A stretch of DNA of 58,561 nucleotides from Betaproteobacteria bacterium (GTDB lineage Bacteria; Pseudomonadota; Gammaproteobacteria; Burkholderiales; SG8-39), in the NCBI GenBank assembly GCA_947466535.1, contig CANIEV010000004.1, positions 1 to 58,561 on the forward strand, given 5' to 3'. Below are positions 15,607 to 42,603 of the stretch, piece after piece (within the stretch, counting starts at the first letter, position 1; every line of letters begins with the position of its first letter). The notes below the pieces were generated by a model, which searched no databases, had not been told where the DNA came from, and saw only the letters and a list, made by a program, of their open reading frames with translations. A program made the translations under genes and the position numbers.

Positions 15607-15609
15607 GAT

Positions 15610-16488: not shown

Positions 16489-16515
16489 GGCCGTCGATTC
16501 CCGGTGTCAGAAATG

Positions 16516-16545
16516 CCGGGGGCGCCGCACTCGCGGCGCCCCCGG
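16516..16545 (-). terminator. 13-bp perfect stem-loop between livK-like and livH genes
   Basis: CCGGGGGCGCCGC (16516-16528) pairs exactly with 16533-16545 around a 4-base loop, inside the 77-bp gap downstream of the receptor gene. There is no U-run on either side, so a full intrinsic terminator is doubtful. A partial terminator or 3'-stabilising hairpin for the receptor message is more likely, as is common in binding-protein operons. Confidence 0.75.
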
Positions 16546-16565
16546 ACTAATCGCTGGAACGGTGC

Positions 16566-17747: not shown

Positions 17748-17792
17748 GGGTCCTCCGTCTGGAAAGTCAAACCGCGATCAAAATGCTGTGGG

Positions 17793-19850
17793 TCAAATGA
17801 CAACCTGGGTCACGTCTTTTCTGCATTGCTCGAGCGCTGCGGCAACCTCCGAGGCCTTGATTCTAGGCGACTTGGCACGGCCGTTGTCAGTGACCACTTG
17901 CCATACCCTCGACTTGTAGAACTGGCGCTGCGACGCGGGAAAGGCAAGCAATGCGGATGCGAGGGCATCCTGGATCTCCGGCGTGAACGCCGCCTCGTAG
18001 GCATCGCGCTCCGGACCGTAGGAGAACTCCGCGGCCGGACCGGCGGGGCGTGCCTTTCGTGCCGCCGCGGTCGCAGCGATGTCGATTGCCGGGCCCGCGG
18101 AGATCACCACGCCGTAGTCCCGGAGCGCGGTTTCGACGCTGATCAGTCCGTCGGACACGTCCTTGAGTACCTTTTTCGGGTCGCGCTCGATCGCATTGCC
18201 GTAGCCGCCGCCGCTTGGGGTGATGATCTCCACAACGTCGCCGGGTTCCGGGTGCAGCGCGCTGGTAATCTTGCCGATGGAGCGCTCTGCTGGGGTTCCG
18301 GGATTGAGGATGGTCTGCGCGAGCGATCCGTGGCTACCGCCTTTACGTCCCCACGGACGGAACTGGAAGCGCTCCATGCCGCGCGCCGTGACGATCGCAT
18401 TGGGTGCGAACACCTGGAAGGAAAAGTCGATTCCCAGACCGCCGCGGTACTTGCCCGGTGCCGGCGGCTCGGCGGAAAGCTGGTACTTGTGGATGAGGAT
18501 CGGCATTTCCGCTTCGCTGGTTTCCGTCGGAATGTTGCGCAGGAATCCCGCCGCGAAATCGGCGCCGTCGATCGCGTCCTTGGTCGGGCGCGCGCCCGAA
18601 CCGCCCCACATCGGCTGCAGCACGTTGACCTTGGTCGCGCCCGTCCGTGCGTCTATGTAGGAAAGCAGGCTCACGCCAAGCAGCCCGGAGCCCGCTGCGG
18701 GCAGGATGCCGCGCGCCTCGCCCGATGATCCGGTGCCGGTGCCGGAATCCACCGCCAGCGACAGGGCGCCGATGATGATGTCCATCACTCGCACCGCTGT
18801 GGCGAAGCGAACGCCGACCGCCGCGTATTTCTCGGGATTGATGATGGTTCCGCGCGGGATGGTCACGCGAACCGGACGCAGCATGCCGCGGTTGAGCGGC
18901 GAACTCTTGTCGACGCTATGGAAGAAATTGAACACGCCGGCATTGATGAAGTGGTGATTCTTTCCGTCGGTCGGCAGGTTCAGCGCTGCGCGCACCTGCG
19001 GGTCGGTGCCGGAGAAATCGAGGTGCATGTCCTCGCCCGCGATTTCCAGCCGGAGCTTGATCCGTGCCGGCGGTTCGCCGGTGATATCCAGCTCGATGTA
19101 GTCCTGGAACTCGTAGGCGCCGTCAGGAATTTTTCCGATGATCTGCTTGGCCCGCTGCTCGCCCCATACCAGCAGGTCCTCCATGCCGTCGCGAACACGC
19201 TCGACGCCGTATTTCTCTATCGTCTGGTCAAGGCGTTTTTCAGCCACGTCCATCGAGGCGAGGAGCGCCTTGAGATCGCCCCAGTTGTAGAACGGGATGC
19301 GGCAGTTGGCGAGGAACAGATCCACCAGGTCGCGGTTGAGTTCGCCGCGTCGGTACAGCTTCATCGGCGGAATGCGGAAGCCTTCCTGGAAAATGTCGTA
19401 GGCCGAGGGGGCGATGCTGCCGGGCACCAGGCCGCCGACATCCGAGGAGTGAATGAAGGTCCAGGAGAAGCAGAGCAGCTCGCCCTTCCAGAAATACGGC
19501 TTGAGCAGATGGATGTCGGGCAGGTGGGTGCACAGCCCGCCGCTGGTGTTGGGGTCGTTGCAGACGAGGACATCCCCCGGCTCGCAGTCCTTCATGAAAT
19601 GCTCCACCAACTCGTCCATCAGCGCGGTTGCCATGAAGGCGACGCCGATGTCCCTCGGGTAGCTGAAGATTTCGCCCTTGAGATTGACCAGTGCCTCGCC
19701 GAAGTCCCAGGCTTCCTTGATGAAGGGCGTGAACGAGGCCTTGTGGATGATGTGGCCCATCTCGCTCGTGATGCCGTTCAGCCGGTTGTTCAGGATCTCG
19801 AGAAAGACCTTGTCAGTGGTTCGTCCGGTAGCCGGATTACTCGCGCTCAT
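17793..19850 (-). CDS. Hydantoinase B / oxoprolinase family protein (HyuB)
   Basis: 685 residues, a full-length HyuB-type subunit. It opens with VFLEILNNRLNGITSEMGH and carries PGDVLVCNDPNTSGGLCTHLPD near 95 and GSGGYGNAI-like glycine motifs (SGGGYGNAIERDP) near 558, characteristic of hydantoinase/5-oxoprolinase and acetone/acetophenone carboxylase subunits. Together with HyuA it would hydrolyse a cyclic amide such as hydantoin, N-methylhydantoin, 5-oxoproline or a lactam with ATP. The C-terminal third is longer than in many homologues and ends near residue 685 without an obvious known domain. It overlaps hyuA by four bases. The substrate is unresolved. Confidence 0.9.
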   Translation of the reverse strand: MSASNPATGRTTDKVFLEILNNRLNGITSEMGHIIHKASFTPFIKEAWDFGEALVNLKGEIFSYPRDIGVAFMATALMDELVEHFMKDCEPGDVLVCNDPNTSGGLCTHLPDIHLLKPYFWKGELLCFSWTFIHSSDVGGLVPGSIAPSAYDIFQEGFRIPPMKLYRRGELNRDLVDLFLANCRIPFYNWGDLKALLASMDVAEKRLDQTIEKYGVERVRDGMEDLLVWGEQRAKQIIGKIPDGAYEFQDYIELDITGEPPARIKLRLEIAGEDMHLDFSGTDPQVRAALNLPTDGKNHHFINAGVFNFFHSVDKSSPLNRGMLRPVRVTIPRGTIINPEKYAAVGVRFATAVRVMDIIIGALSLAVDSGTGTGSSGEARGILPAAGSGLLGVSLLSYIDARTGATKVNVLQPMWGGSGARPTKDAIDGADFAAGFLRNIPTETSEAEMPILIHKYQLSAEPPAPGKYRGGLGIDFSFQVFAPNAIVTARGMERFQFRPWGRKGGSHGSLAQTILNPGTPAERSIGKITSALHPEPGDVVEIITPSGGGYGNAIERDPKKVLKDVSDGLISVETALRDYGVVISAGPAIDIAATAAARKARPAGPAAEFSYGPERDAYEAAFTPEIQDALASALLAFPASQRQFYKSRVWQVVTDNGRAKSPRIKASEVAAALEQCRKDVTQVVI

Positions 19851-21925
19851 TGCAGTTCTCCGATGATGTTGCCGAGACGGTCCACCTTCGCGGTGAAGCC
19901 GGCGGGAATGAAGACCGTGGTGTCGTACTGGTCGACGATCGCGGGGCCGCTGAATTCATGGCCCCAGGTGAGCGATTTTCGGTCGAACACCGAGGTCTCC
20001 TGGGTCTTGCCGTCGAAGTAGATCTGGCGGCGTGACGCGGGCGGCGCGGCTCGCGCGGCACCGGTGAGTTCCTTGTCGCTGATCGGGGCGAGCGGCGGCT
20101 TCGCGGTGATGCCGATGGCCGTCACCCGGATGTTGATGATCTCGATCGGCGCGGTGGTGTCCGCCTGTCCGTAGATCGCCGCATAGCCCTTGTGGAAGGC
20201 CTCGGCGACCTTGCGCGCGGCACCCTCTGCGGCGAGATCCACATGCGAAAGGTCCACCGCGATCTCGAACGACTGGCCGAGGAAGCGGACGTCAGCGCCC
20301 TTGGCGATGCGTTCCTCCTCGACGTTGATTCGCTCCGATTTGATCCAGGCGGAGGCGCGTTGCTCGAGTCCGGCGAATGCCTTGCGGATGTCGGCGAGCT
20401 CGTCGGTACCGGACGCCGGATCCAGCGCCTGGTGCACGGTGGCGATGAAATCGCTCTTGACGTCGGCGACCATCGAGCCGAGCGCGCACAGCGTGCCCGG
20501 GGACATCGGGACAAACACCTTCTGGATGCCGACTTCGCGGGCAAGTACGAATCCGTGCGTGGCGCCGGCGCCGCCGTAGACCAGGAGGGCGAATTCGGAG
20601 ACATCGACGCCCTTGCGCGCCATCAGCGGCACGAGCTCCGAATACATGTTCGAGGTGGCGACCTGCACGATTGCTTCGGCGGCCTTGACGCGGTCAAGGC
20701 CGATTGCAACGGCGATGCCATCGATCGCCGCGGCAGCCTTGTCGGGGTCGAGTTTCAGCTCGCCGCCAAGAAATTTTGCGGGATCGACAATGCCCATCAC
20801 GACATAGGCGTCGGTGATCGTCGGCAGCGTGCCGCCGCGACCGTAGCAGGCCGGGCCGGGATCGGCGCCGGCGCTCTTGGGGCCGACTTTCAGCACGCCG
20901 GAGGCATCGGTCCACGCGATCGATCCGCCCCCCGCACCGATGGAGGATACGTCCACCGCCGGCATGATGATTTCGAAATCACCGACGTGTGATTCGGTCG
21001 AGTACCGGATGTCACCGTCAATCACCGCGACCTCGGTGCTCGTGCCGCCCATGTCGATGCCAATCAGTTTGGTAAAGCCTGCCTGGTTACCCACGTATCG
21101 CGCACCGATCACGCCCGATGCCGGGCCGGAGGTGAGCGTTTCCACCGGGACGAGGCGCGCGCTGGCGGCGGTCATGATGCCGCCGTTGGATTTCGTCGAA
21201 AGCAGCCTCGCGGTCACGCCCGCGGCAAGCACTTCCTTCTCGAGGGAACTGAAGTACTGGTCCATCTTGCGTCCGACGAAGGCATTGATTGCGGTGACGA
21301 GCGTGCGCTCGTACTCGCGGATCTGCGGCCAGATCTCGGAGGACGTCGACACGTACAAATCCGGGAAATGTTTTTGAACAAGTTCCTTGGCGCGACGTTC
21401 GTGCGCGGGGTTGCGATAGGAGTGGAGAAACGACACGGTCAGTGCTTCGATTCCGTCATCCACGAGTTCCTTGACCGCCTGCAGCAGTTCGGCTTCGGGA
21501 AGCGCCTTGTACGGTGCGCCGGTCTTGAGCATGCGCTCCCCGATTTCCTTGACATCGCGCCGGGCGACAAGCGGCTCCGGCTTCTCGGTGAAGTAGTCGA
21601 ATATGTCCGGCAACCGGGATCGGCCGAGGTTGAGGATGTCCTTGAAGCCCTGGGTCACGATCAGTCCGGTGCGCGCTCCCTTGCGCTCGATCACGGTGTT
21701 GACCGCGATCGTGGTGCCATGCACGAAGTAACGGATGGCCGATGGAGGAACCTTGTAGCGATCGGCGAACACCCGTATGCCTTCGACCACGCTGCGGGTG
21801 GGGTGGCTGGGGGTCGAAGGAACCTTGACCGATGTGAGTACTCCGGTGGTCTCGTTCATCAGGCAGAAATCGGTGAAGGTGCCGCCGATGTCGATGCCAA
21901 GACGATAGCTGTCAGTGGAACCCAT
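19847..21925 (-). CDS. Hydantoinase A / oxoprolinase family ATP-binding subunit (HyuA)
   Basis: 692 residues. The actin-like ATPase motifs are LGIDIGGTFTDFCLMN at the N-terminus, RYFVHGTTIAVNTVIERKG near 65, and LIGIDMGGTSTEVAVIDG near 290, as in HyuA/OplA. GAGGGSIAWTDASG near 335 and GRGGTLPTITDAYVVMG are further conserved blocks. It phosphorylates or activates the cyclic amide for hydrolysis by HyuB. The gene lies 21 bases downstream of an ATZ/TRZ amidohydrolase and overlaps hyuB, so the three are surely one transcript. That order resembles the logic of creatinine degradation (deaminase, then N-methylhydantoinase), but carbamoylsarcosine amidase is absent. Confidence 0.9.
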   Translation of the reverse strand: MGSTDSYRLGIDIGGTFTDFCLMNETTGVLTSVKVPSTPSHPTRSVVEGIRVFADRYKVPPSAIRYFVHGTTIAVNTVIERKGARTGLIVTQGFKDILNLGRSRLPDIFDYFTEKPEPLVARRDVKEIGERMLKTGAPYKALPEAELLQAVKELVDDGIEALTVSFLHSYRNPAHERRAKELVQKHFPDLYVSTSSEIWPQIREYERTLVTAINAFVGRKMDQYFSSLEKEVLAAGVTARLLSTKSNGGIMTAASARLVPVETLTSGPASGVIGARYVGNQAGFTKLIGIDMGGTSTEVAVIDGDIRYSTESHVGDFEIIMPAVDVSSIGAGGGSIAWTDASGVLKVGPKSAGADPGPACYGRGGTLPTITDAYVVMGIVDPAKFLGGELKLDPDKAAAAIDGIAVAIGLDRVKAAEAIVQVATSNMYSELVPLMARKGVDVSEFALLVYGGAGATHGFVLAREVGIQKVFVPMSPGTLCALGSMVADVKSDFIATVHQALDPASGTDELADIRKAFAGLEQRASAWIKSERINVEEERIAKGADVRFLGQSFEIAVDLSHVDLAAEGAARKVAEAFHKGYAAIYGQADTTAPIEIINIRVTAIGITAKPPLAPISDKELTGAARAAPPASRRQIYFDGKTQETSVFDRKSLTWGHEFSGPAIVDQYDTTVFIPAGFTAKVDRLGNIIGELQ

Positions 21926-21946
21926 TTGAACCTTTCAGGGAAATTT

Positions 21947-23350
21947 TCAATGCACCGGCCAGCGCTGCTCTTCGGGGATGTTGGCCCCGCGTGCCGCGCT
22001 GGCGGCGTGTTCGATGACTTTCTGCTTGAGCAGATCCTCATCGATCGTGAGGAGTTTCCGGTGGCGCATGACGAAACGCCCGTCGATCATCACCGAGTCC
22101 ACCGCCTCGCCGCTCGATGAGTAGACAAGGTTCGCAACCGGATTGAGCAGGGGCCGGGGAAACCATTCGAGCCCGTCTGTTCTTACGAGCACGAGGTCGG
22201 CGCGCTTGCCTGCCTCGATCGAGCCGATCTCGTCATCCCAGAGCAGCGCCTTCGCGCCGTCGCAGGTCGCCATCTCGAAGGCCTTGTGCGCGCCCATGAC
22301 CTCGGCGTCGATGTGCGTGTCCTTGTGGGCGCAGGCGACGATGTACATTTCGCGCACCAGGTCGAGAAAGCGGCTGATCGAGGCGGCGTCGGTGCCGAGA
22401 GACATCGTGGCGCCTGCCGCGGCGAGTTCGACGAACTTGCCGTGCGTGATGCAGCCGAAAGCGCCGAACATGCTCGCCGAGGCGCAATGGCAGACCTTGG
22501 TTCCGGTTTTTGCGACGAGTTCCACTTCCGCGTCGTCGAGCGCGCCCATGTGCACGGCGTAGAGATTCTGGTCGAGCAATCCGAGACGGCGGAAGCGTTC
22601 CATCGGACGCATGCCGAATTTCTTCAGGACCTCGGCCGTTTCCGCGGGATTGATCGCGAGATGCACGTGGATGCCGGTGCCGAGCTCGTCCGCCCGATGT
22701 TTCACCAACCGGCAGAGTTCGTCGCTGACGTTGAAGGATGTCCGAAGGCCGTACCAGATGCGTATCCTGCCGCTGCCGGCGCCGTGCCAGGCAGCGTGGA
22801 GTTCATCGAGCTTCGCCAGCGCACCCTCGGGCGAGACTGTCAGGTCGTCCGGCGTGGGGCGGATCGGGTCGGAGATGTCGCGCGTGGACCGGGTGACGCA
22901 GGCGCGAATGCCGATATCGACCGCGGCTCGGATGGTCGCCTCCGGCTGATAGCTGCCGGGATCCGAGAAACAGGTCGTGCCGCTGCGGATCATTTCCGCG
23001 AACGTCCCCATCGAGCCCCAGTAGGACTGCTCCGCATTGACCGACACGTCGAACGGGTAGAGTCGGGTGGCCCAGCGCCGTGGCGTTGCGATGTCGTCGA
23101 GCAGTCCCTTGGTCAGGTAATGCCCCGGGTGATTGTGGCCGTCGATGAGGCCAGGTATCACCAGCATGCCGCGCGCATCGATCTGCTTCGCCCCCGGGTG
23201 TCGGACCCTGAGGTCGGCGGCCTTGCCGACCTCCACGATCCTGTCGCCGGATATCGCAACGGCGCCATCGAGGATGATTGAGCGCCCCGCGTTCATGGTG
23301 ACCACGGTTCCGTCAACTATGAGGAGATCGACTGGGCGCATTGCCGTCAT
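21947..23350 (-). CDS. ATZ/TRZ-type metal-dependent amidohydrolase (aminohydrolase) 1
   Basis: 467 residues. Metal ligands are visible as DGHNHPGH (HxH), HVHLAINPAE, HMGALDDAEV and LGTDAAS, the Zn or Fe amidohydrolase pattern of the ATZ/TRZ/SsnA/cytosine-deaminase-like group. Such enzymes remove amino or chloro substituents from N-heterocycles. The frame is open to 23413; ATG 23350 gives a start just before RPVDLLIVDGTVVTMN, the conserved beta-sandwich strand. A strong-looking sigma70 promoter sits at 23419-23447. It leads the amidohydrolase-hyuA-hyuB-liv run. Deamination of a heterocycle to the cyclic amide used by HyuAB is the inferred role. Confidence 0.85.
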   Translation of the reverse strand: MTAMRPVDLLIVDGTVVTMNAGRSIILDGAVAISGDRIVEVGKAADLRVRHPGAKQIDARGMLVIPGLIDGHNHPGHYLTKGLLDDIATPRRWATRLYPFDVSVNAEQSYWGSMGTFAEMIRSGTTCFSDPGSYQPEATIRAAVDIGIRACVTRSTRDISDPIRPTPDDLTVSPEGALAKLDELHAAWHGAGSGRIRIWYGLRTSFNVSDELCRLVKHRADELGTGIHVHLAINPAETAEVLKKFGMRPMERFRRLGLLDQNLYAVHMGALDDAEVELVAKTGTKVCHCASASMFGAFGCITHGKFVELAAAGATMSLGTDAASISRFLDLVREMYIVACAHKDTHIDAEVMGAHKAFEMATCDGAKALLWDDEIGSIEAGKRADLVLVRTDGLEWFPRPLLNPVANLVYSSSGEAVDSVMIDGRFVMRHRKLLTIDEDLLKQKVIEHAASAARGANIPEEQRWPVH

Positions 23351-23418
23351 TCCGTTGCTGGTTCGATGTGTGGATGCGGGGCCTCGGAGGAACCGGAATC
23401 GGTTCGAGGGCAACCGAA

Positions 23419-23447
23419 AAATTAAGGCGTTGGGGATTAAAAGTCAA
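23419..23447 (-). promoter_or_regulatory. Sigma70-type promoter for the amidohydrolase-hyu-liv run
   Basis: On the minus strand TTGACT (23447-23442) and TAATTT (23424-23419) are separated by exactly 17 bases, in a locally AT-rich patch between the TetR gene and the amidohydrolase. TCAAA (23444-23448) and TTTGA (23455-23459) overlap the -35 as a small dyad that a repressor could use. Confidence 0.6.
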
Positions 23448-23484
23448 ATGTTTTTTTGATTTTGAGCCCGCCCGGGTTTTCCTG

Positions 23485-24147
23485 CTACGGCCTCAGTGCA
23501 TCGAGGACGAAGCGGACGATATGTTTTTTCCGCGTGCGGATTGCACCGGGCTGAAGCAGGTCGCGCCCGACGACCGCGGAAACGGTGTACGCGTTAGTGA
23601 AATAGAAATTGCAGACCGCGAAGATCGTCAGGTAGAGGTGCTCCGGATTCACATGCTTTGCAAACAGCCCGAGCGATTTTCCCCGGCGCAGAACGAACTC
23701 GATGTCCCGGAGCAGCGGCGAAGCGGCCGCTCGGACGCGCTCGCTCGCGTCGGCGGTGAGGTGTGCTCCGCGATTGCGGTTCACGTCGAGCACCAGGGCC
23801 ATATGTTCGGGCGTATCCCGTACGAACTCGAACACGTCGGACACGATCTCCACCATGCCTTCCAGCGGGGGGGTGTTTTTCAGATCCCGGGGCGCCTGGC
23901 GCGCGCGGAATGCGTCGTAGCCATTCTCGAGTACCGCACGGAAAAGCGCCGACTTGTTGCCGAAGTGATAGTAGAGCGCGTGATTGTTGACTTTGGCGGA
24001 TTTTGCAATCCGGTCAACCCGGGCACCGGCGAGTCCGTGGGTCGAGAATTCGCGGAGCGCGGCGGCGAGAATCGTGGCCCTGGTGCGCCCGGATTTGTCG
24101 TATTGGCGCCGTTGCCCGTTTTCGGAATGCTTGCGTTTTGCTTCCAT
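23485..24147 (-). CDS. TetR/AcrR family transcriptional regulator
   Basis: 220 residues. The N-terminal helix-turn-helix runs from about 24 to 68 (ILAAALREFSTHGLAGARVD, then KVNNHALYYHFGNKSALF), a textbook TetR DNA-binding domain. The C-terminal ligand domain resembles the TetR_C_15/RutR-like group (HLYLTIFAVCNFYFTNA near 170). RutR controls pyrimidine catabolism, which would fit the neighbourhood, but this similarity is only by eye. It lies between the minus-strand hyu/liv run and the divergent amidase, and is the obvious candidate to bind the two ATATTGC/GCAATAT dyads at 24341 and 24487. Confidence 0.9.
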   Translation of the reverse strand: MEAKRKHSENGQRRQYDKSGRTRATILAAALREFSTHGLAGARVDRIAKSAKVNNHALYYHFGNKSALFRAVLENGYDAFRARQAPRDLKNTPPLEGMVEIVSDVFEFVRDTPEHMALVLDVNRNRGAHLTADASERVRAAASPLLRDIEFVLRRGKSLGLFAKHVNPEHLYLTIFAVCNFYFTNAYTVSAVVGRDLLQPGAIRTRKKHIVRFVLDALRP

Positions 24148-24340
24148 ACCGCGTTACCCGCCTCCTCGGAGCGCTGCGCGTGGGATCGTTGCGATGTTGG
24201 CAAGGGTACCCGAAGGCGCCCGCTTCGATGCGAGACGGCGGCGTCCTCGTGAACATGGCAGCATTCGCCGAGCCATGGTTTATGGCGACGCGCACCGCGT
24301 CGGGGCGTTCGACTGAAAACATGCACTCTGAACGAGCAAA

Positions 24341-24360
24341 ATATTGCTATGCAGCAATAT
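24341..24360. promoter_or_regulatory. Candidate TetR operator O1
   Basis: ATATTGCT (24341-24348) and its exact complement AGCAATAT (24353-24360) are separated by ATGC. The inner arms ATATTGC/GCAATAT recur at 24487. It sits just upstream of the tetR gene, suited to autoregulation. Confidence 0.55.
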
Positions 24361-24395
24361 ATGCTATTTCAGATATCGGAACGCCGGAAAGAAAG

Positions 24396-24429
24396 AGGCC
24401 GGTAGGTCCATTAGAGGAGCTACCGGCCT
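24396..24429. other. 10-bp stem-loop in the tetR-amidase gap
   Basis: AGGCCGGTAG (24396-24405) pairs exactly with CTACCGGCCT (24420-24429) around a 14-base loop. It may be a leader hairpin or insulator between the divergent promoters. No U-run follows. Confidence 0.5.
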
Positions 24430-24486
24430 GAATGCGGGTCCAAAGGAGGAGGAGGAAAACACCGCAGAACCGATATTACCGAAAAA

Positions 24487-24503
24487 ATATTGCGTTGCAA
24501 TAT
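24487..24503. promoter_or_regulatory. Candidate TetR operator O2
   Basis: ATATTGC and GCAATAT flank GTT, sharing both arms with the site at 24341 but with a 3-base rather than 6-base centre. It lies 55 bases before the amidase start, a good position to block its promoter. Confidence 0.55.
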
Positions 24504-24557
24504 CGATATAGTGAGTTCCATCAAACCGAATCGCCTACCGTATTCAAAGGGTTTTCC

Positions 24558-25907: not shown

Positions 25908-26029
25908 TTAGAGGCCTGCTGCGCAGAAAGGGTGCATGTCGTCTCGCATGGCCATAGCGGGATTAGACTCGGGGTTCAGGCGCATGCTTTGGCGCAGACG
26001 AGTCGCAACGCAATTCAGGGAGACGTACG

Positions 26030-27019
26030 ATGAAAGGCAACATGTCCACGATGAGCAGGGCTATCGCCTCGGGCGCGCTCTTCCTTTTGACCGCGGTGGT
26101 GCAGGCGCAACCGGTTCCGCCCAGCGCGTTTCCGAGCAAGCCGGTTCGCATCATCGTGCCGTATTCCGGCGGATCCTCGGATGTCACCGCGCGCATCCTT
26201 GCGCCCAAGCTGCAGGAAGTGTTTCGCCAGCCGGTAATCGTCGAGAACAAGCCGGGCGCGAATGCGGTGATCGGTACCGATTACGTGGCCAAGGCACCGG
26301 CAGATGGGCACACGCTGCTCGCCGTGATCACCACGCACGTGATCAGCCCCAGCCTGATCACGACGCCCTACGACCCGCTCCGGGACTTCGCGGCGGTCAC
26401 TACCTTCTCTGCCGCGGAGCTCGGTTTTGCGATCTATCCCGGTGTGCCCGCCAACAACCTGCAGGAGCTGATCGCGCTCGGCAAGGCAAAACCGGGCGAA
26501 CTCAATTACGCGACGACACAGATCGGCGGCAACCAGCACCTCGCGGGCGAACTCTTTGCGATCCTCACCGGCGCGAAATTCACCGCGGTGCCGTTCAAGG
26601 GTGGCGGCGAGGCGCTGGGTGCGGTGCTCGGCGGTCATGCGCAGATGTACTTCGGATCCCTCACCAGCCTGATCCCGCCGATGAAAAACGGCAAGCTGCG
26701 GGCGATGGCGGTGTCCGGCGACAAGCGCACGCCGGCGCTGCCGGATGTCCCCACCTTCACCCAGGCGGGGGTGCCGAATTTCGATGTGCGGCTCTGGTAC
26801 GGGCTGCTTGCACCGGCGGCGACGCCGAAGGACGTGGTGGAGCGGGTGAACTCGGTGATCGCCAACATCATCAACACGCCCGAGCTTAAGGAAGCGCTTG
26901 CCAAGCAGGGCATGGACCCCTTGCTGATGTCGCCTGCCCAGTTCGGCGCGCTGATGCGCACCGACTTCGACCGCTACGCGAAGATCATCAAGACCGCAAA
27001 CATCAAGGTCGATAACTGA
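26030..27019 (+). CDS. Bug-type (TctC) periplasmic substrate-binding receptor 3
   Basis: 329 residues with a signal peptide ending near VVQAQP and the motif FPSKPVRIIVPYSGGSSDV. PADGHTLLAVITTHVISPS and LAPAATPKDVV are the usual Bug blocks. It follows the amidase by 122 bases in the same direction, so it may supply the amidase pathway. GGGAG lies before ATG 26030; a second ATG at 26042 would also give a normal signal peptide. It is convergent with the cyclodeaminase-like gene; a GCCGCGCGCGGC dyad at 27028-27039 lies between them. Confidence 0.9.
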   Translation: MKGNMSTMSRAIASGALFLLTAVVQAQPVPPSAFPSKPVRIIVPYSGGSSDVTARILAPKLQEVFRQPVIVENKPGANAVIGTDYVAKAPADGHTLLAVITTHVISPSLITTPYDPLRDFAAVTTFSAAELGFAIYPGVPANNLQELIALGKAKPGELNYATTQIGGNQHLAGELFAILTGAKFTAVPFKGGGEALGAVLGGHAQMYFGSLTSLIPPMKNGKLRAMAVSGDKRTPALPDVPTFTQAGVPNFDVRLWYGLLAPAATPKDVVERVNSVIANIINTPELKEALAKQGMDPLLMSPAQFGALMRTDFDRYAKIIKTANIKVDN

Positions 27020-27043
27020 TGTGACGGGCCGCGCGCGGCGGAA

Positions 27044-28030
27044 TCAGGGAAGCTCGACGACTTTTCCCCGTCCGAGATTTTCCGCCTTGCGCAACGCGTA
27101 CGCGGCAAAGGCGATGTCGCCGATCGCCATACCCTGCATGATCGAGACAATGCGATCCGATGCGGCGAGCCGGCCCGGCTTGCTGCCCGCGATCACCTCG
27201 CAGGCGAGCGCATCCACGCGCTCGACGAAGGCCTCGCGCGTCAGGTGGCCCTGCCGAATCCATGCCCCGCCTTCGCCCATCTCGGCGGCGAAGTCGGAAT
27301 CGTCCACGATGAAGCGGTCGGCCTCGCGCAGCACGCCGTAGTCGAGTTCGTTGTAGCTGCCCATCGAGCACACCACCGCGCCGGCTTTCAGCGTGCCGGA
27401 AAACACCAGCGGTGTCTTCGATTCGGTGAGGGTGATCACGACGTCCGCCTCTTTCACCATCTCGCGGCCATCCGGCACCGCAAGCATCGGGCAGCCGAGC
27501 GTCGGCGCGTGCTCGGCGACAAAGGACTGCATGCTTTCCGCGCGACGCGAATTGACACGCAGTTGCTTCATGTTCAGCACGCGATTGAGCATCGGAACGA
27601 TTTCCTTTGCGATGCCGCCGGTTCCGAACAGCGCCACCGTCAACTGGCCGGAATTGGCAAGCGCCTCGACTGCGACCGCGCCAAAGGCGGCGGTGCGAAT
27701 GCGGCTGAGGAACTGCTCCGAGACCAGGCCCGAGAGCAGAAAGCCCGAGTGGTCGTACACCGCGCTGTAGTTGCAGGTCTTCATCGCGGTCGGGCCGGGA
27801 TGCGAGAGCAGCCGGATGCCCGATGCATTCAGATGACCCACCGCTGCCGCCTTGAACTTGAAGCGCGGGCCGCCGAGCGTTGTCGCATCCAGCACCATCG
27901 CGGAGGGCGAGGAAAGGGTGCTGTGTCCGTCCGCCTGGTCTTTCAGGGTGCGGCGCGCGAGATCAAGCGCGGTGTCGGCATTGATTGCGGCGCGGACATC
28001 GTCCTCGCCGAGGATGCGCAGGTTTGCCAT
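27044..28030 (-). CDS. Ornithine cyclodeaminase / mu-crystallin family protein
   Basis: 328 residues, the family's normal length. The Rossmann motif VALFGTGGIAKEIVPML lies near 133, and FKFKAAAVGHLNASGIR near 58 plus GSYNELDYGVL near 225 match the conserved substrate and NAD regions (the acidic DS/ELD group). Members include ornithine cyclodeaminase, ketimine reductase and alanine dehydrogenase, so the activity may be deamination or imine reduction of an amino acid formed by ring cleavage. It lies 9 bases from the downstream side of the ring-opening amidohydrolase gene and is surely co-transcribed with it. Confidence 0.87.
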   Translation of the reverse strand: MANLRILGEDDVRAAINADTALDLARRTLKDQADGHSTLSSPSAMVLDATTLGGPRFKFKAAAVGHLNASGIRLLSHPGPTAMKTCNYSAVYDHSGFLLSGLVSEQFLSRIRTAAFGAVAVEALANSGQLTVALFGTGGIAKEIVPMLNRVLNMKQLRVNSRRAESMQSFVAEHAPTLGCPMLAVPDGREMVKEADVVITLTESKTPLVFSGTLKAGAVVCSMGSYNELDYGVLREADRFIVDDSDFAAEMGEGGAWIRQGHLTREAFVERVDALACEVIAGSKPGRLAASDRIVSIMQGMAIGDIAFAAYALRKAENLGRGKVVELP

Positions 28031-28039
28031 GGTGTCGCC

Positions 28040-29113
28040 TCAGGCGTTACGGACGATGCAGGCGCACAAGCCGCCGCCGGGCGGGGCCTGGTGCACCGTG
28101 TTCGCGGAAATGAACACGCGGGTCGAGCCAAGGATGGAACCGACGATGCCGCTCATCGCGGCGCGCACATGCTTGTCCATGTCGATATGGCTGGACTTCA
28201 TCGTGGTGCGCAGGCCACGCACCTTTCCGTCCGGTGCCGCACCCGCCTTGATCAGGGTCGCCATCACGCGCGCGGCGTCGGTCACTTCGCCGTCGGCGTT
28301 GATCGTGCAACCTGCCGCTGCGAACATGTCGCGCAGGCCCTTGGCATCCAGCACGTCGCGCAGGAAACCGGTTTGCACCACGAGATCGCCGGAGGCACCT
28401 GGCCGGTTGGCGAGCAGCATGATTTCCACGCAGTCGAGTTCCGAACCCGAGAACACCATTGCACGCTTCGCATACAGGCTGTGATCGGTGTCGAAGGCCT
28501 CCTGCACGATGCGCTCGCGCGCGACTTCGCCGAGAGCAAGCCCCGCGCCGAGCGCGCCCACCGCCTTGGAGTAGGCAGACGTGATGCGCTTGTTCTTCAC
28601 TGTACCCGCGGTGGCGGGGATATGGCTGGTCACCGGAGTTTTCACGATCACCAGCGCGACATCGGCGGGGGTGACGCCTGCGTCCTTCATTGCGGCGCGG
28701 ACCGTCTCGGCGGTGATGTCAGCGTGATCGACGGTGCCGATCTCCTCCGGTGTGAGCGAACGGCTGCGCGCGCAGCCGAAGGCGAGTGCCTTGCCCGAGG
28801 GCGAGGGTTTCGCACCGGGCTCGTCGTAGTCCACGAACAGATTGCCAAAGGGGGTCATCGCGCCTTCACAGCCGGTCGAGATGAGAAAGGTCGAGCGTTC
28901 AACAAGAGCATTGCCGCCGTGCGTTTCGAGGGCAATCGTCGCGCTCTGCATTGCGTATTCGCGTGAAAAATCGTTCACGTCCGAGTTGCCCTCGGTCTTC
29001 ACCAGCAGGGCGAGGCGCCGGATGCGCGCAGGATCGAACGCCTTGAGGTGGCGGGTGAGGTCGCTCACATCGCCCGGATTGGCGGTGTCATAGGTGATCA
29101 CATGAACGGTCAT
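28040..29113 (-). CDS. Ring-opening amidohydrolase (cyanuric acid amidohydrolase / barbiturase family) 1
   Basis: 357 residues, the usual length. The family is a Toblerone fold of three similar domains, each with a Lys-Ser pair. All three are visible: Lys39 (LVKTEGN) with Ser79 (ISTGCEG), Lys158 (IVKTP) with Ser222 (FSGSE), and Lys289 (LIKAGAAPDG) with Ser336 (FISAN). HQAPPGGG near 341 is the conserved metal/C-terminal loop. The enzyme hydrolyses a cyclic imide/ureide ring such as cyanurate or barbiturate. Sequence alone does not separate these. It is followed on the minus strand by the cyclodeaminase-like gene and preceded by an ATZ/TRZ aminohydrolase. Confidence 0.9.
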   Translation of the reverse strand: MTVHVITYDTANPGDVSDLTRHLKAFDPARIRRLALLVKTEGNSDVNDFSREYAMQSATIALETHGGNALVERSTFLISTGCEGAMTPFGNLFVDYDEPGAKPSPSGKALAFGCARSRSLTPEEIGTVDHADITAETVRAAMKDAGVTPADVALVIVKTPVTSHIPATAGTVKNKRITSAYSKAVGALGAGLALGEVARERIVQEAFDTDHSLYAKRAMVFSGSELDCVEIMLLANRPGASGDLVVQTGFLRDVLDAKGLRDMFAAAGCTINADGEVTDAARVMATLIKAGAAPDGKVRGLRTTMKSSHIDMDKHVRAAMSGIVGSILGSTRVFISANTVHQAPPGGGLCACIVRNA

Positions 29114-29175
29114 TGTCCTGTCTTTCCTTGCCTTGTATTTTCATGAGCCGCTTGCGCGGCCGCCGGTGCTCCGGG

Positions 29176-30705
29176 TCAGGCTGTCGGCTTGCCCACATAG
29201 CGGTGGATGGGCAGGGGTGTCGCCCAGGCGCGCCGCTGTACCTCGTCAAGATAGGGCAGCACTTTAGCGTAGCCGGACTGCAGTTTGGCGACGTCGCTGC
29301 GAAGCGACGGCATCATGCCTGCAATCTCCTCGCGCAGCGAGGCCTCGTCCACGCGGCTGGAACGTCCGTCGCGCACCACCACCTCGCCATCGACGATGAC
29401 AGTGCGGATCGAGCGGCCGGAATCGGCATACACCAGTTGCCGGACGGCGCTGTTGTAGGGCACGTAGGCGGGGTCGGCGAGGTCGAGCAGCGTAATGTCG
29501 GCCTTGTGGCCGGGGTGTAGCGCACCGATCGAGTCGGACAATCCGGCGGTCTTGGCACCCCCGAGGGTGGCGGCCCGCAGAGCAGCCTCGGCATTGACCG
29601 AGGTGCGCTCGGGGGAGCTGACTGCCGAGAGCAGGCAGAAGAGCTTCATCACCTGCAGCATGCTCTGCACATCGCTGCAGCTGCAGTTGTCGCAGCCAAG
29701 CGCAATATTCACGCCGCGCGAACGGTAGTCCAGGATCGGGGCCACGCCGCTCTTGAGTTTCAGGTTGCTCAGCATGTTGAGCACGACGTTCGTCTTTGTT
29801 TCGCCGATCAGGTCGAGTTCGTCGTCCTCGGGCCAGATGCCGTGCGCGATCGTCACATGGGGCCCGAGCAGGCCGGTGGCGCCGAGCAGGCGTATCGCCG
29901 AGCCGCCGTACGCGGCAAGCCGCTCGTGCGAGAAGATCCGCTGGGTGCGGGTCTCGTAGACGTGCGTATAGACCGGCAGGTCGCGGCGACGCGACAGATC
30001 CGCCACCGCGGCAAGCAACTCCGGCGAGCAACGCTGCGGCGCCGAGGGCGCGAGCGCCCAGCGCAGCATCCCGCCGCGGTCGCCGACGCGGGCAATCGCC
30101 TTTTCCACGAAATCCATCTGCGGGCCGGGCGAATCGCTTTGCGTGCCGATGATGGAATGCAGTTCACCCGGTGCGAGCTCCGCGACCCAGGGAATCGTGT
30201 CGATCTGCGACTTGTCGCGCACCGTGATCGCGAATACCACCCGGATGCCGGCTTCCGCGTAGGCCTCGAGAATCGTGTCCAGAACCTCGTCGCTCATCGG
30301 CGAGAACACGCTCATGTCCTGCACGGTGGTGATGCCGTTGCGAAGGCACTCGATCGCACCGAGCAGCGTGCGTGCACGGACTTCCGCCAGCGATCGCTTC
30401 GAGCCCACCTGCCCGGCAAGCACGCCCCAGTGCTCGAGAGCAAGGTCTTCGAGCATGCCCTTGGCAAGCACGTCGTGCGAGTGGTAGTGCGCATTCACCA
30501 GGCCCGGAATCGCGAGCATGCCGCCCGCGTCGATCACCTCCGCCCCGGCAGGCGGCGTGAGGCCGTCGCCGATGGACTTGATCAGTCCGTTCTCGATGAC
30601 TATGTCGCGCACCGGCGGATCGTCGAGATCGCCATCGAGGTCGAGCACGCGCGCGCCGCGCAGCAGCAGGGGTTTCCGGGCAGGGCTCATCGCTGGCTTC
30701 ATCAT
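29176..30705 (-). CDS. ATZ/TRZ-type metal-dependent amidohydrolase (aminohydrolase) 2
   Basis: 509 residues. Metal site residues appear as NAHYHSHDVLAKGMLED (HxH), VYTHVYETRTQ, IAHGIWPEDDE and ALGCDNCSCSD. It is related to amidohydrolase 1 (compare GLIDGHNHPGHYLTKG with GLVNAHYHSHDVLAKG) but clearly diverged. The C-terminus has about 40 extra residues (KLQSGYAKVLPYLDEVQRR). It is 62 bases upstream of the ring-opening hydrolase and would feed it by deaminating an amino-substituted heterocycle, by analogy with s-triazine degradation (AtzB/AtzC before AtzD). GAGGAA precedes ATG 30705. Confidence 0.87.
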   Translation of the reverse strand: MMKPAMSPARKPLLLRGARVLDLDGDLDDPPVRDIVIENGLIKSIGDGLTPPAGAEVIDAGGMLAIPGLVNAHYHSHDVLAKGMLEDLALEHWGVLAGQVGSKRSLAEVRARTLLGAIECLRNGITTVQDMSVFSPMSDEVLDTILEAYAEAGIRVVFAITVRDKSQIDTIPWVAELAPGELHSIIGTQSDSPGPQMDFVEKAIARVGDRGGMLRWALAPSAPQRCSPELLAAVADLSRRRDLPVYTHVYETRTQRIFSHERLAAYGGSAIRLLGATGLLGPHVTIAHGIWPEDDELDLIGETKTNVVLNMLSNLKLKSGVAPILDYRSRGVNIALGCDNCSCSDVQSMLQVMKLFCLLSAVSSPERTSVNAEAALRAATLGGAKTAGLSDSIGALHPGHKADITLLDLADPAYVPYNSAVRQLVYADSGRSIRTVIVDGEVVVRDGRSSRVDEASLREEIAGMMPSLRSDVAKLQSGYAKVLPYLDEVQRRAWATPLPIHRYVGKPTA

Positions 30706-30723
30706 TGAGTTCCTCGGTGCGGC

Positions 30724-31680
30724 TTACTTCTCGACCAGTTCCGACTTGTACTCGGTGACAAAGCCGTAGTACGAGGTGATCATCTTCTGCAGGTCGGCTG
30801 CCGGAATGATCTTCGGGAACACGCCGACTTTCTTCTGTTTTTCGACGTGCTCGGGATTGTCAATCGCCTTGGCAAAGGCCTGCTGCAGGCGCTGGATGCG
30901 GTCGGCGGGAACGCCCGGGCCGGTGCTTATGTAGATCACTTCGTTCACCGGCGCGATCTTGTGGCCGAGTTCCGCCACCGTTGGCACGTTCGGCAGAGCC
31001 GGGTCGCGCCCGTCGCGAAACACGCCGATAAAATTCACCTTGTCCGCCCGGCTCGCGGAACTCGATCCGCCGATCGCCATGTCCACATGGCCGCCGGCGA
31101 GCGCGACGTACGCCGGCGCGCCGCCGGCAAAGGGAACCGGCAGCAGGTCGAGGTTTAGCGCCGAGCGCAGCAACATTATCTGGAGGTGGCTCGGTCCGCC
31201 GTGGCCGAGGGTCGCCACCGTCACGCGCCGCGAACGTCCGATCTTGATCAGGTCATCGAAGCTCTGGATCGGGGAGTCCTTGCGCACGTACAGGTTGAAC
31301 GCGTTGACGAACCAGCCGATTACCGGCTGGATCTCCTTCACCTTGTAGTCGGCGTTGTAGACCACCTCGCCGAGCACTTCCTCGGGCGAGGCCTCGGTCA
31401 TCATGGTGTAACCGTCAGGCTTGCTGCGATAGAGCTGGGTACGGGCGATGCGGCCGGAGGCACCGCGCACGTAATCGAACACGGTGTTGATGCCCTGTTC
31501 CGCGAGGTAAGGCTGGATCAGGCGCGAGGAGGTGTCGATCAGGCCGCCCGCGGACTGGTAGATGATCCATTTCACGAACTGGCTCGGGTAGGCCTGCGCG
31601 AGGGCGGAACCGGTGGCTGAGGCAAGTGCAAGGCCGCCCGCGGATTTGAGGAAGTTGCGGCGATTGAAAGAGGCGGTCAT
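30724..31680 (-). CDS. Bug-type (TctC) periplasmic receptor 4, Tat-exported
   Basis: 318 residues. The N-terminus NRRNFLKSAGG is a twin-arginine signal, followed by LALASATGSALAQAYPS, so the protein is probably folded before export, which is uncommon among Bug receptors. The body contains WIIYQSAGGLIDTSS, DYVRGASGRIARTQLY and PALPNVPTVAELG. It is more diverged than the other three receptors in this window. ATG 31680 is chosen because it places the RR motif at the right distance; the open frame begins at 31737. It heads the minus-strand run of receptor, aminohydrolase, ring-opening hydrolase and cyclodeaminase. Confidence 0.88.
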   Translation of the reverse strand: MTASFNRRNFLKSAGGLALASATGSALAQAYPSQFVKWIIYQSAGGLIDTSSRLIQPYLAEQGINTVFDYVRGASGRIARTQLYRSKPDGYTMMTEASPEEVLGEVVYNADYKVKEIQPVIGWFVNAFNLYVRKDSPIQSFDDLIKIGRSRRVTVATLGHGGPSHLQIMLLRSALNLDLLPVPFAGGAPAYVALAGGHVDMAIGGSSSASRADKVNFIGVFRDGRDPALPNVPTVAELGHKIAPVNEVIYISTGPGVPADRIQRLQQAFAKAIDNPEHVEKQKKVGVFPKIIPAADLQKMITSYYGFVTEYKSELVEK

Positions 31681-31716
31681 GGCGTCGTTCCTGTGGGGGA
31701 TTGTGGCTAATATGCA

Positions 31717-31734
31717 CCATGCGCCAGCGCATGG
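31717..31734. promoter_or_regulatory. 7-bp inverted repeat in a divergent promoter region
   Basis: CCATGCG and CGCATGG flank CCAG, midway between the divergent receptor 4 gene and ring-opening amidohydrolase 2. A shared operator for both directions is inferred from position only. Confidence 0.4.
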
Positions 31735-31873
31735 CACGGCTTCGATAGATCCGTTCCGTTATATGCAATAAACAGGCCTGAATTCGCACGAGCTTATGCC
31801 GGTTTTTGCGCATCTTCGTCGTCGTGTTCGCACCCGGCAGGTGCGCCTCAGGACATCAAAGGGAGTCTGAACA

Positions 31874-32971
31874 GTGAAGGCAGAAAAATCGCCCCTGAGT
31901 GCACCGGCATTCGATTCGATGGAACTGCGGGTGATCCCGTTCGACATGGCCTCCGCGGGCGACGCCTCGGGCATTCGCCGGGCGCTGGCGCGGATTCCGT
32001 CCGCGCGCCTGCGTCAGCTTGCAGTGATCGCGAAAGTCGAGGGCACGGCCACGCTCAACGACAGCTCGCGCGAACTCGCGAGCGCGCGGATCGCATCCGA
32101 ACTCGCCCGTTCGGGCGGGGCAAAGCTCTCGCAAAAGACACTCGAAATCCTCTCGGTCGGCTGCGAAGGCCTGATCACCCCGGGCGGCTGGCTGATCGCA
32201 TCGTTGAAGGGTAAAAGTCGCGCGAAGGCGTCGTTGGTTCCCATGCCCCCGGGGCTCGTGATGGGCGCTGCGCGCAGCGCGCCGATACGCATGCAGGACC
32301 GTGCCGGTCTGCGGCATGTCGCATTCGCGGCGGATGCGGTGCGCGCGGCGATGCGAGAAGCGGGGCTGGACGCGAAGAGCGTCGCGCTGGTTCTGATCAA
32401 GAGCCCGATCCTGATGCCCGGTGCCACGGGTGCGATAGCGGCGGAGCAGCGCAGGCACATCGGTTCCACCGGTGCGTCGCGCGGCGCGGCGGCACTGGGT
32501 GCCGCAATCGCGCTGGGCGAAATCCGCAAATCGGCGGTGAACGCGGGCAGCCTCTGTGCGGACGCATCGCTGCACAGTGAGCGGACGATGGCGTTTTCCG
32601 GCACCGAGACCGACTGCTGCGAGGCGGTGGTGTTCGGTCATCGGCAGGGAGGCGATTCCTCCCTGCGTCTTGATCGCGCGGTGCTTGCAGATCTCATCGA
32701 TCGCGCGTCGCTCGAGGGACTTGCCGCGGGCGGCGGAGCGCTGTCTGCGATGTTCTTCAAGGCAGGGATCGGCCCGGGCGGGCTCTTGCGCGGGCGGCGC
32801 ACCACGGTCCTGTCAAGCGAGCTTGCCGCGGACAAGCAATTGCGCGCGGCAGCGAGCGGGGTGGTCGGCGCAGTGCTAGGCACCACGCGCGCCTTCATCT
32901 CCGGCGGTGCCGAGCATCAGGCTGCGCCGGGTGCCTGCCTCGCGGCGGTGATACGCAAAGCGGTACCCTGA
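31874..32971 (+). CDS. Ring-opening amidohydrolase (cyanuric acid amidohydrolase / barbiturase family) 2
   Basis: 365 residues from GTG 31874, with GGGAG 8 bases upstream; ATG 31919 is an alternative. All three Lys-Ser pairs are kept: Lys54 (IAKVEG) and Ser94 (LSVGCEG), Lys176 (LIKSP) and Ser242 (FSGTE), Lys296 (FFKAGIG) and Ser343 (FISGG). The third-domain loop reads HQAAPGA rather than the HQAPPGG of paralogue 1, a change next to the conserved metal/ligand loop. It is convergent in theme but divergent in direction from paralogue 1, with about 2.8 kb between them. Two full paralogues in one locus are unusual and suggest different substrates. Confidence 0.88.
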   Translation: MKAEKSPLSAPAFDSMELRVIPFDMASAGDASGIRRALARIPSARLRQLAVIAKVEGTATLNDSSRELASARIASELARSGGAKLSQKTLEILSVGCEGLITPGGWLIASLKGKSRAKASLVPMPPGLVMGAARSAPIRMQDRAGLRHVAFAADAVRAAMREAGLDAKSVALVLIKSPILMPGATGAIAAEQRRHIGSTGASRGAAALGAAIALGEIRKSAVNAGSLCADASLHSERTMAFSGTETDCCEAVVFGHRQGGDSSLRLDRAVLADLIDRASLEGLAAGGGALSAMFFKAGIGPGGLLRGRRTTVLSSELAADKQLRAAASGVVGAVLGTTRAFISGGAEHQAAPGACLAAVIRKAVP

Positions 32972-32983
32972 AATAAGGAAGGC

Positions 32984-33097
32984 TTCCCTCTGAAATGGGG
33001 AATTTACAAGGGGGCGTCACGCCCTTGTTCACACTCTCCTCTTCCCTCTGGAATGGGGGATATACAAGGGGGCGTCGCGCCCTTGTTCACACACTCT
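32984..33097 (-). repeat. Two tandem AAGGGGGC post-stop hairpin repeats
   Basis: Two units 58 bases apart (32984-33038 and 33042-33097), each reading on the minus strand GAACAAGGG..CGCCCCCTTGT followed by ATTCCCCATT-type sequence and CAGAGGGAA. The right-hand unit begins directly after the stop of the minus-strand SDR gene. The same unit follows the stop codons of glcF and of the BT1-type transporter. Each can fold to a hairpin and may act as a terminator for its upstream gene. Confidence 0.75.
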
Positions 33098-33820: not shown

Positions 33821-33885
33821 GGGTAGGGCTTTCTATTCAGTGTGAACGAAATGATTCGTGATGGTCGGTCGCACGCCGGGTGCGA

Positions 33886-39835: not shown

Positions 39836-39857
39836 GAACGGAATCAAGGGAGTCGTC

Positions 39858-40745: not shown

Positions 40746-40785
40746 GTCCGACATCGCACGCAGCGTCACATTGTGCCGGGCTATC

Positions 40786-40971: not shown

Positions 40972-40995
40972 GAGATCGTTTGCACTGGCACACAC

Positions 40996-42480: not shown

Positions 42481-42524
42481 TGATGAGCCACCGTCATGGC
42501 GCACCATTGCACTTGCAATGCTCG

Positions 42525-42603
42525 TCATTGCGAGCGCAGCGAAGCAATCTGCCTTGGGGTCGTGCCGGGTGGGATTGCCACGTCGCTGCGCTCCTCGCAA
42601 TGA
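42525..42603. repeat. REP-like palindrome between glcD and glcE
   Basis: TCATTGCGAGCGCAGCGAAG (from 42525) and the imperfect complement ending CTCCTCGCAATGA (to 42603) form an ATTGCGAG-family inverted repeat. It separates glcD from glcE, which are usually adjacent, and the glcE ribosome site lies just after it. Confidence 0.8.

Follow-up and report, generated by a model that had tools for sequence, protein, structure and literature searches.

The window analysed here, a stretch of 58,561 nucleotides (contig CANIEV010000004.1 of the betaproteobacterial assembly GCA_947466535.1, order Burkholderiales), encodes two proteins of the Toblerone family, AtzD1 and AtzD2, and the alignments indicate that they belong to a lineage of this family in which the domain-B serine is missing and the rest of the active site is kept. 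Both genes lie in the right half of a catabolic locus that, as a whole, we think is best explained as two independent modules side by side, the right one a conserved module that would be of an orotate-type pyrimidine pathway, and the left one a block that would act on a cyclic ureide; we hold this explanation tentatively, placing it a little below an even chance. A sequence-only reading of the same DNA had proposed a single undescribed pathway of N-heterocycle catabolism. Catabolism of that kind does look right from the gene content, and the open-licence literature that we searched describes no pathway with the whole gene set, just as that reading supposed, but the order of genes in related genomes splits the locus in two.

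AtzD1 and AtzD2 are Toblerone proteins as judged by the family model (both pass the PF09663 cut-off of 25) and, for AtzD1, also by predicted fold, and they lack the one active-site feature that has been called invariant. The AlphaFold model of AtzD1 (pLDDT 84, pTM 0.88, with residues 83–87 and 307–310 poorly predicted) has a TM score of about 0.84 to 6bum, and every one of its top 33 PDB matches is a Toblerone enzyme. The pocket of the family is three-fold symmetric and contains three Ser-Lys dyads, and excerpts of PMC4051656 give Ser226/Lys156 (A. caulinodans numbering) as the sole dyad conserved in all 119 members, with activity of the cyanurate hydrolase reduced about 1e9-fold by S226A and 5,000-fold by R188K. 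The identity of the attacking serine has been disputed since 2013. Ser85 of domain A (in AtzD) was argued to be the nucleophile in the parts of PMC3758960 cited here, even though the domain-B serine is conserved throughout the 68 members considered there, whereas excerpts of PMC4051656 and PMC6557486 favour Ser226/231 of domain B, the latter assigning the strictly conserved domain-2 (domain B) serine by an argument from geometry.

The loss of this serine, which the sequence-only reading had overlooked, is evident in ungapped register with the solved enzymes, where RAMVFSGSEL of AtzD1 stands against RASCSSGIEL of the reference, placing a Phe, residue 221 of AtzD1, at position 226 with a Ser following at 227; both window proteins keep Lys156 and have Phe in place of its serine partner. 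Our alignment was drawn from the fetched loci only and not from every search match, with proteins matching over fewer than 290 residues dropped, and its 116 family proteins reduce to 71 distinct sequences (the window's two included) that together with five PDB chains make 77 rows, 76 of them different. Ser226 is replaced in 22/22 AtzD1 and AtzD2 proteins (21 Phe and one Tyr), comprising 21 full-length proteins and a fragment from genome G237; Phe is present in all 16 full-length AtzD1 proteins (window included), in the G237 fragment, and in four of the five AtzD2 proteins, the fifth having Tyr. Among the other 55 rows there are 50 with Ser and one with Thr (51 rows, five of them the PDB chains), and four with Ile or Val that are also without Ser79. 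Eight site residues, Lys40, Arg52, Ser79, Lys156, Glu230, Lys285, Arg314 and Ser333, are invariant in the 21 full-length AtzD1 and AtzD2 proteins, such that the other two dyads (Ser79/Lys40 and Ser333/Lys285) are intact in every one. In a quick tree, all rows without Ser or Thr at position 226 split from the rest with SH-aLRT support of 100, and AtzD1 (99) and AtzD2 (97) form separate clades, although several branches are long and the program warns of possible long-branch joins. A third Toblerone gene, beyond the two noted earlier, is located on another contig of the same genome (C16:16738–17820; loci L033 and L051); it belongs to the barbiturase clade, has Asn188, Lys314 and an intact Ser226, and is 55% identical to 5hwe.

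The two genes are part of the right block of the locus (24432–32971), whose members are:

24432–25907, plus strand: amidase-signature hydrolase (PF01425, 203 bits)
26030–27019, plus strand: Bug1, a TctC-type periplasmic receptor, convergent with OCD (PF03401, 205 bits)
27044–28030, minus strand: OCD/mu-crystallin family NAD(P)-binding protein of the imine reductase type (PF02423)
28040–29113, minus strand: AtzD1, Toblerone-fold cyclic-amide hydrolase-like protein, 357 amino acid residues (PF09663, 261 bits), with Phe at the Ser226 position and Lys at the Arg188 position, both shared by all 16 full-length AtzD1 proteins
29176–30705, minus strand: ATZ2, a COG0402-type metal amidohydrolase (PF01979)
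30724–31737, minus strand: Bug2, a TctC-type periplasmic receptor (PF03401, 112 bits)
31874–32971, plus strand: AtzD2, second Toblerone paralog, 365 amino acid residues (PF09663, 185 bits), with Phe at the Ser226 position and Arg188 kept

The plus-strand Amidase-Bug1 pair faces the minus-strand row Bug2-ATZ2-AtzD1-OCD, in which the gaps are 18, 62 and 9 bp; Bug1 and OCD converge 24 bp apart, and AtzD2 diverges from Bug2 at a distance of 136 bp. A promoter and terminator scan of 23000–33200 gave a site count not above that of shuffled sequences. The SDR1 and SDR2 genes to the right (33098–34731) were rejected as module parts, since at E 1e-5 the AtzD1 loci contain nothing that matches them; their weak matches fall in other stretches.

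AtzD1 orthologs were collected from a named scan (five loci) and from whole-genome searches of 98 members of the family and 399 genomes of the order, with further searches of 398 genomes of the phylum and, in the orders to which G849 and G850 belong, of 347 and 43 genomes, respectively (genomes are designated by G, loci by L, and contigs of the window's own genome by C). Seventeen genomes carry one, counting the window, and the other 16 orthologs are 62–85% identical to that of the window. The carriers are the own genome (G000), G023 of the same family, 11 members of genus g37, which belongs to a different family within the order, and G849, G850, G851 and G1057 (the records being Pseudolabrys for G849, Rhodospirillales for G850 and Polaromonas for G851); the named relatives are metagenome-assembled, and we suspect that one labelled Bordetella parapertussis is an environmental assembly given a wrong name. 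For the 16 other AtzD1 genes, surrounding stretches of 3 to 40 kb were fetched, five of them 10.3 kb or less, and the absences reported below are limited to these.

Several patterns emerge from this comparison. First, an OCD gene is near the module in all 17 genomes, adjoining AtzD1 in 14 and the second Toblerone gene in three (G849, G850 and G1057). Secondly, the amidase (at least 58% identity) is present in 15 of the 17, cut by the contig end in G443 and G237; the exceptions are G303, whose contig ends first, and G851, whose 13.5-kb contig has no amidase. Thirdly, a Bug1 ortholog (49–65% identity) occupies the same convergent place in 13 genomes, window included, and that place, between AtzD1 and the amidase, is taken in both L024 and G1057 (L127) by a transporter of the TRAP type (DctM and an NMT1-like receptor). 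ATZ2 (at least 63% identity) occurs in 10 of the 17; the contigs of G332, G237 and G850 start at AtzD1, and no ATZ2 was found in the fetched stretches of G023, G849, G851 and G1057. An AtzD2-clade gene lies within 7 kb of AtzD1 in five genomes (G000, G273, G849, G850 and G1057). Bug2 is not a conserved part, its matches in the other loci reaching 30% at best. The order Amidase-Bug1-OCD-AtzD1-ATZ2 is kept in the Burkholderiales, and AtzD1-AtzD2-OCD-Amidase is also kept in three further genomes outside it.

The motifs HxH, HxxE, H and D of ATZ2, which we take to be its metal and active-site motifs, are present in 9/9 aligned sequences, and the Lys, cis-Ser and Ser that presumably form the amidase triad are present in all 13 distinct aligned sequences; 17 distinct OCD sequences carry, with some variation, what we take to be the NAD motif. 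The PDB matches of OCD are alanine dehydrogenase, pyrroline-2-carboxylate reductase and iminosuccinate reductase (6rqa, 46 bits), all of them weak. The amidase reaches no biuret or allophanate hydrolase cut-off, scoring far below those of AtzE (139 versus 426) and allophanate hydrolase (126 versus 511).

The related loci also link the right module to orotate genes. PyrE and an M20 hydantoinase/carbamoylase-family gene are located beside the module in 7 of the 13 loci of at least 10 kb (L028, L080, L081, L082, L026, L129 and L127/L128, but not L023, L024, L079, L083, L085 or the window), and in none of 10 control Toblerone loci (L031–L033 and L088–L094, of which nine are at least 10 kb, L093 is 9.2 kb, and L032 holds a fragment). 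Fisher's test gives p 0.0075, or 0.017 without L093 and 0.020 with all module loci above 5 kb (7/15), with the qualification of non-independent loci, since one genus supplies four of the seven positives; the linkage as such is found in four lineages (genus g37, G850, G851 and G1057). In L025/L129 and L026 the cluster also includes a dihydroorotate dehydrogenase of the NAD type, with a PyrK-like subunit. Curated cut-offs are passed by PyrE in L028, L128 and the own genome, by PyrD in L026 and the own genome, and by the M20 proteins in four of four cases tested (TIGR01879); below cut-off are the L026 PyrE (220 versus 245) and both PyrK-like proteins tested.

Orotate genes were also looked for in the carrier genomes as a whole. 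Of the 12 carriers searched (of 17), 10 have PyrE2 and M20 as a pair or in a cluster, and in G000 and G849 this PyrE is the sole one above 45 bits. On contig C13 of the own genome the row is PyrE, an opposed XRE regulator, PyrK, PyrDB, M20 and ATZ2′ (a 47% paralog of ATZ2), with scores of 389 for PyrE (cut-off 245), 340 for PyrDB (269), 244 for TIGR01879 (204), and 113 for PyrK, which is below its cut-off of 219. In the 399-genome sample a PyrK ortholog (at least 46% identity) occurs in 12/12 AtzD1 genomes versus 6/387 others (p 6e-19), with the top 5–6 candidates per genome scored, and with two draws of 399 taken as the same genomes since the listed handles agree.

The reading of the right module that best fits these linkages is an orotate-type pyrimidine pathway that would end in aspartate. 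The Bug-type receptors would bring in the ring compound, and ATZ2 would probably act first, either as a deaminase removing an exocyclic amine or as a ring hydrolase; ATZ2′ on C13 follows M20, the position held by PyrC in G849. AtzD1, perhaps with AtzD2, would open the ring of orotate, or of a compound close to it, to give a ureido-dicarboxylate, from which the amidase, or an M20 carbamoylase encoded elsewhere, would strip the carbamoyl group to yield an imino or enamine acid; the OCD-family reductase would then convert this to an amino acid, L-aspartate in the orotate version. Such a chain would account for AtzD1, OCD, the amidase and M20 together. Because the Ser226 equivalent is missing in both Toblerone proteins, the attacking serine would have to be that of domain A (the Ser79 equivalent, residue 79 also in AtzD1, whose lysine is still present) or that of domain C (residue 336 of AtzD1), and AtzD2 may act on a second substrate or form a mixed oligomer. 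In orotate the two ring carbonyls and the carboxylate occupy alternating positions of the ring, so that the molecule could mimic a three-fold ligand, and we note that two of the three Toblerone-pocket sites hold carboxylates in the cyanurate hydrolase structures, as given in the excerpted text of PMC6557486. In its most specific form, the proposal is of an undescribed route to aspartate that would start from orotate or a close pyrimidine carboxylate: AtzD1 and AtzD2 would open the ring by the domain-A serine, Phe226 would shape the pocket for an asymmetric substrate and OCD would finish the conversion. This form is possible but on balance doubtful. Searches of the open-licence literature turned up no account of Toblerone proteins without the serine, of orotate catabolism of this kind, or of an 'orotic acid hydrolase', and the clade may be published elsewhere; the sections of PMC4016543 and PMC5806882 consulted do not describe this system.

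A number of observations weigh against an orotate substrate. The 58.6-kb window has no match to PyrE, M20, PyrK or PyrD, and the orotate genes of the own genome are on another contig of a draft metagenome-assembled genome (341 contigs, 90% complete, 5% contamination), in which absence is weak evidence and a foreign contig is possible. Six of the 13 module loci have no PyrE or M20 beside them, PyrE2 with a close M20 was not found in G198 and G023 among the 12 carriers searched, and 11 of the 12 AtzD1 genomes in the PyrK co-occurrence are of one genus, i.e. there are two independent lineages. G047 (g37) and G849 have a PyrC gene beside that for PyrD (TIGR00856, 404 and 436 bits against a cut-off of 293), so in these two genomes a Toblerone enzyme is not required for dihydroorotate. 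Neither ATZ2 nor Bug1 has an established role in orotate breakdown, and the best solved relative of OCD is alanine dehydrogenase, at just 57 bits. AtzD1 matches cyanurate hydrolases at 180 bits, as against 99 bits for 5hy0, a Toblerone family member whose depositor's PDB title reads 'orotic acid hydrolase', a title being no test of activity. The study of 5hy0 (AEM 2017) is said to have reported no substrate.

These points bear on the closest competitor, which we consider unlikely though not lightly dismissed: the right module is real, its substrate is some other cyclic imide or ureide, and the orotate genes are nearby merely as fellow nitrogen-scavenging genes. PyrE and M20 are unlinked to the module in G849 and G273 as well as in the window, and the AtzD1 pocket (Lys188, Asp310, Arg314, Ala334, Asn335) fits neither of the signatures given in excerpts of PMC3758960, these being Arg195, Thr321, Arg325, Gly345 and Gly346 for cyanurate hydrolase and Asn195, His321, Lys325 and Val345 for barbiturase (AtzD numbering); AtzD2, with Arg, Asp, Arg, Gly and Gly at the same positions, also departs from both. 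Telling against mere neighbourhood are the PyrE and M20 linkage in four lineages with none among the controls, and the presence of PyrK in every AtzD1 genome of the sample.

It is improbable, in our view, that the Toblerone proteins without Ser226 are no longer hydrolases and act instead as binding or regulatory subunits, or share one site in a mixed oligomer. The residue lost throughout the two clades is the nucleophile favoured in excerpts of PMC4051656 and PMC6557486, and in the fetched data AtzD2 is seen only near AtzD1 (5/5), as a partner subunit might be; however, the invariance of the eight site residues is unlike a decayed site, and a domain-A serine has itself been argued to be the nucleophile (PMC3758960, in excerpt).

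To the left of the amidase is a second block (13290–24147), all on the minus strand and with the order TetR-ATZ1-HyuA-HyuB-LivKHMGF:

23485–24147, minus strand: TetR-family regulator, at the head of the left block (PF17938/PF00440)
21947–23413, minus strand: ATZ1, a COG0402-type amidohydrolase of the left module (PF01979)
19847–21925, minus strand: HyuA, hydantoinase A/oxoprolinase family (PF01968, PF05378 and PF19278; 275 bits)
17793–19850, minus strand: HyuB, hydantoinase B/oxoprolinase family (PF02538, 436 bits)
16566–17747, minus strand: LivK-type periplasmic receptor (PF13458, 193 bits)
13290–16488, minus strand: LivH, LivM, LivG and LivF-like ABC importer genes (best models LivH, LivM, LivG and LivF, all below equivalog cut-offs)

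The gaps between neighbours from LivH through TetR are −4 to 77 bp, and HyuA and HyuB are adjacent with an overlap of four bases. Pfam models identify both subunits of the HyuAB family, known HyuA members of which are ATP-dependent; no specific equivalog cut-off is reached, HyuA scoring 534 bits with the caprolactamase alpha model (cut-off 1000). The best NCBIfam match of TetR is RutR at 71 bits, far under the cut-off of 368. An apparent LivG-LivM fusion was rejected, as the 396-residue open reading frame merely overlaps LivM in another frame. This module looks like an ordinary HyuAB-type cyclic-ureide cluster, and would provide for uptake and degradation of a hydantoin or creatinine-like compound.

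In the fetched stretches the left genes do not accompany the right module. Around the 16 other AtzD1 genes, neither TetR nor LivK finds a counterpart at E 1e-5, and ATZ1 matches only the ATZ2 genes there (24–26%). Distant matches to HyuB (27–30%) occur in L081 and L127, and to HyuA and HyuB (27–35%) in L131, where they are at least about 10 kb from AtzD1 in G849; these lie toward the edges of the three stretches, and are unsurprising in so abundant a family. The best matches to ATZ1 (50%) and HyuA (62%) in the plasmid collection adjoin on one Variovorax plasmid (RA8), with the order IclR-ATZ1-HyuA-HyuB-M20-TctC and no Toblerone gene within the 25 kb shown.

A single pathway including HyuAB is thus not supported, and the proposal that HyuAB, both ATZ enzymes, both Toblerone enzymes, the amidase and OCD serve one substituted heterocycle strikes us as quite improbable, even with all the genes contiguous in about 20 kb and a gap of just 284 bp between TetR and the amidase, given that the left genes lack close matches in the stretches fetched around other AtzD1 genes and that the left core stands alone on the Variovorax plasmid. 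The sequence-only reading had correctly located HyuAB, two ATZ/TRZ proteins, two Toblerone proteins, the amidase, OCD, LivK, two Bug receptors and TetR, all of which Pfam models place at the same positions. Its 15-kb span, however, cuts the Liv genes, which continue to 13290, and the one TetR region that it set over all the genes heads the left block only. Of its sequence of deamination, ring opening and ureido or amide hydrolysis the enzyme types are present, but a single sequence using all the genes finds no support. The density that it pointed to is only partly a surprise; it is the conserved order of the right half that does look clearly beyond chance. As an argument for a single pathway density is weak: the genome has 10 HyuB-family genes, and with these, and with two further Bug genes upstream in the window, HyuAB near another amidohydrolase can be a matter of chance.

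That AtzD1 and AtzD2 are simply an ordinary cyanuric acid hydrolase or barbiturase is very improbable in spite of their family membership and fold, as cyanurate or barbiturate specificity was rejected on Lys188 in AtzD1 (where R188K is so costly), Phe226 in both and the signature mismatch, both proteins are under the CyanAcHdlAtzD cut-off (NF052395; 259 and 175 versus 360), the amidase is no biuret or allophanate hydrolase by score, and the barbiturase-clade gene is a separate one on C16. The broader TIGR02714 model (cut-off 153) is passed by AtzD1 (205) and not by AtzD2 (125).

Among known systems, the cyanuric acid hydrolases AtzD, TrzD and MtCAH are alike in modelled fold and 33–36% identical to AtzD1, which shares two of their three Ser-Lys dyads and the arginines of domains A and C; AtzD1 differs in Phe226, Lys188 and the loss of the loop glutamate 337, and in having neighbours that do not score as biuret or allophanate genes. 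The pairing of AtzD with an AtzE/AtzF-class biuret or allophanate hydrolase that characterizes the atzA-F s-triazine pathway is likewise not found in the window. Barbiturase (5hwe) of oxidative pyrimidine catabolism has the same fold, and some module loci have a pyrimidine-type context like its own, but it is only 28% identical and has Ser226, Asn188, Lys314 and Val334, none of which is present in the window proteins. Soong in 2002 reportedly found a phosphoribosyltransferase beside the barbiturase gene. The reductive orotate route of the Clostridium oroticum type uses dihydroorotate dehydrogenase, dihydroorotase and N-carbamoyl-aspartate hydrolase, and PyrK, PyrDB, M20 and PyrE (with PyrC in two genomes tested) occur in module-carrying genomes; the right module adds two Toblerone proteins, OCD, the amidase and ATZ2, all unneeded in that route. 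The left module shares an amidohydrolase and HyuAB with clusters that we take to be linked to N-methylhydantoin and creatinine, and has a Liv importer and TetR where the Variovorax RA8 plasmid has M20, TctC and IclR; in Paracoccus pAMI1, HyuAB is near an N-methyl-amino-acid oxidase and C1 genes.

Two substrates are known for the Toblerone family, which is small and structurally isolated, and a natural lineage without the domain-B serine that keeps the rest of the site makes the question of the attacking serine directly testable. If ring opening of the orotate type is correct, the module would also point to a route, so far unrecognised, by which alpha- and betaproteobacteria draw nitrogen from pyrimidines. 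The lineage is also a warning that family membership alone should not give a cyanuric acid hydrolase annotation.

Other genes in the window and in related loci deserve mention. Genes for a molybdenum hydroxylase of the xanthine-dehydrogenase type (CoxG, FAD, 2Fe-2S and large subunit) are located near PyrK-PyrD in L143 (genus g37); relatives of the large subunit are near PyrD in L142 and L144 (g37), and in L129 the large subunit flanks the cluster. The window itself encodes a molybdenum-cofactor-binding oxidoreductase large subunit of 752 residues at 51630–53885, about 19 kb from AtzD2. A row at 39017–44970 contains sugar-isomerase-like, 3-hydroxyisobutyrate/tartronate-type reductase and glycolate-oxidase-like (FAD and CCG iron-sulphur) genes, which suggests glyoxylate or glycolate metabolism. 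Further right is a RuBisCO large-chain-like protein of 391 residues (46116–47288; 70 bits), which is probably a RuBisCO-like protein of form IV; the gene next to it (47382–48722) is acyl-CoA-dehydrogenase-like. Near the left end a pyridine-nucleotide-disulphide reductase with an N-terminal VTT membrane domain (3887–6121) adjoins a radical SAM/DUF3641 gene.

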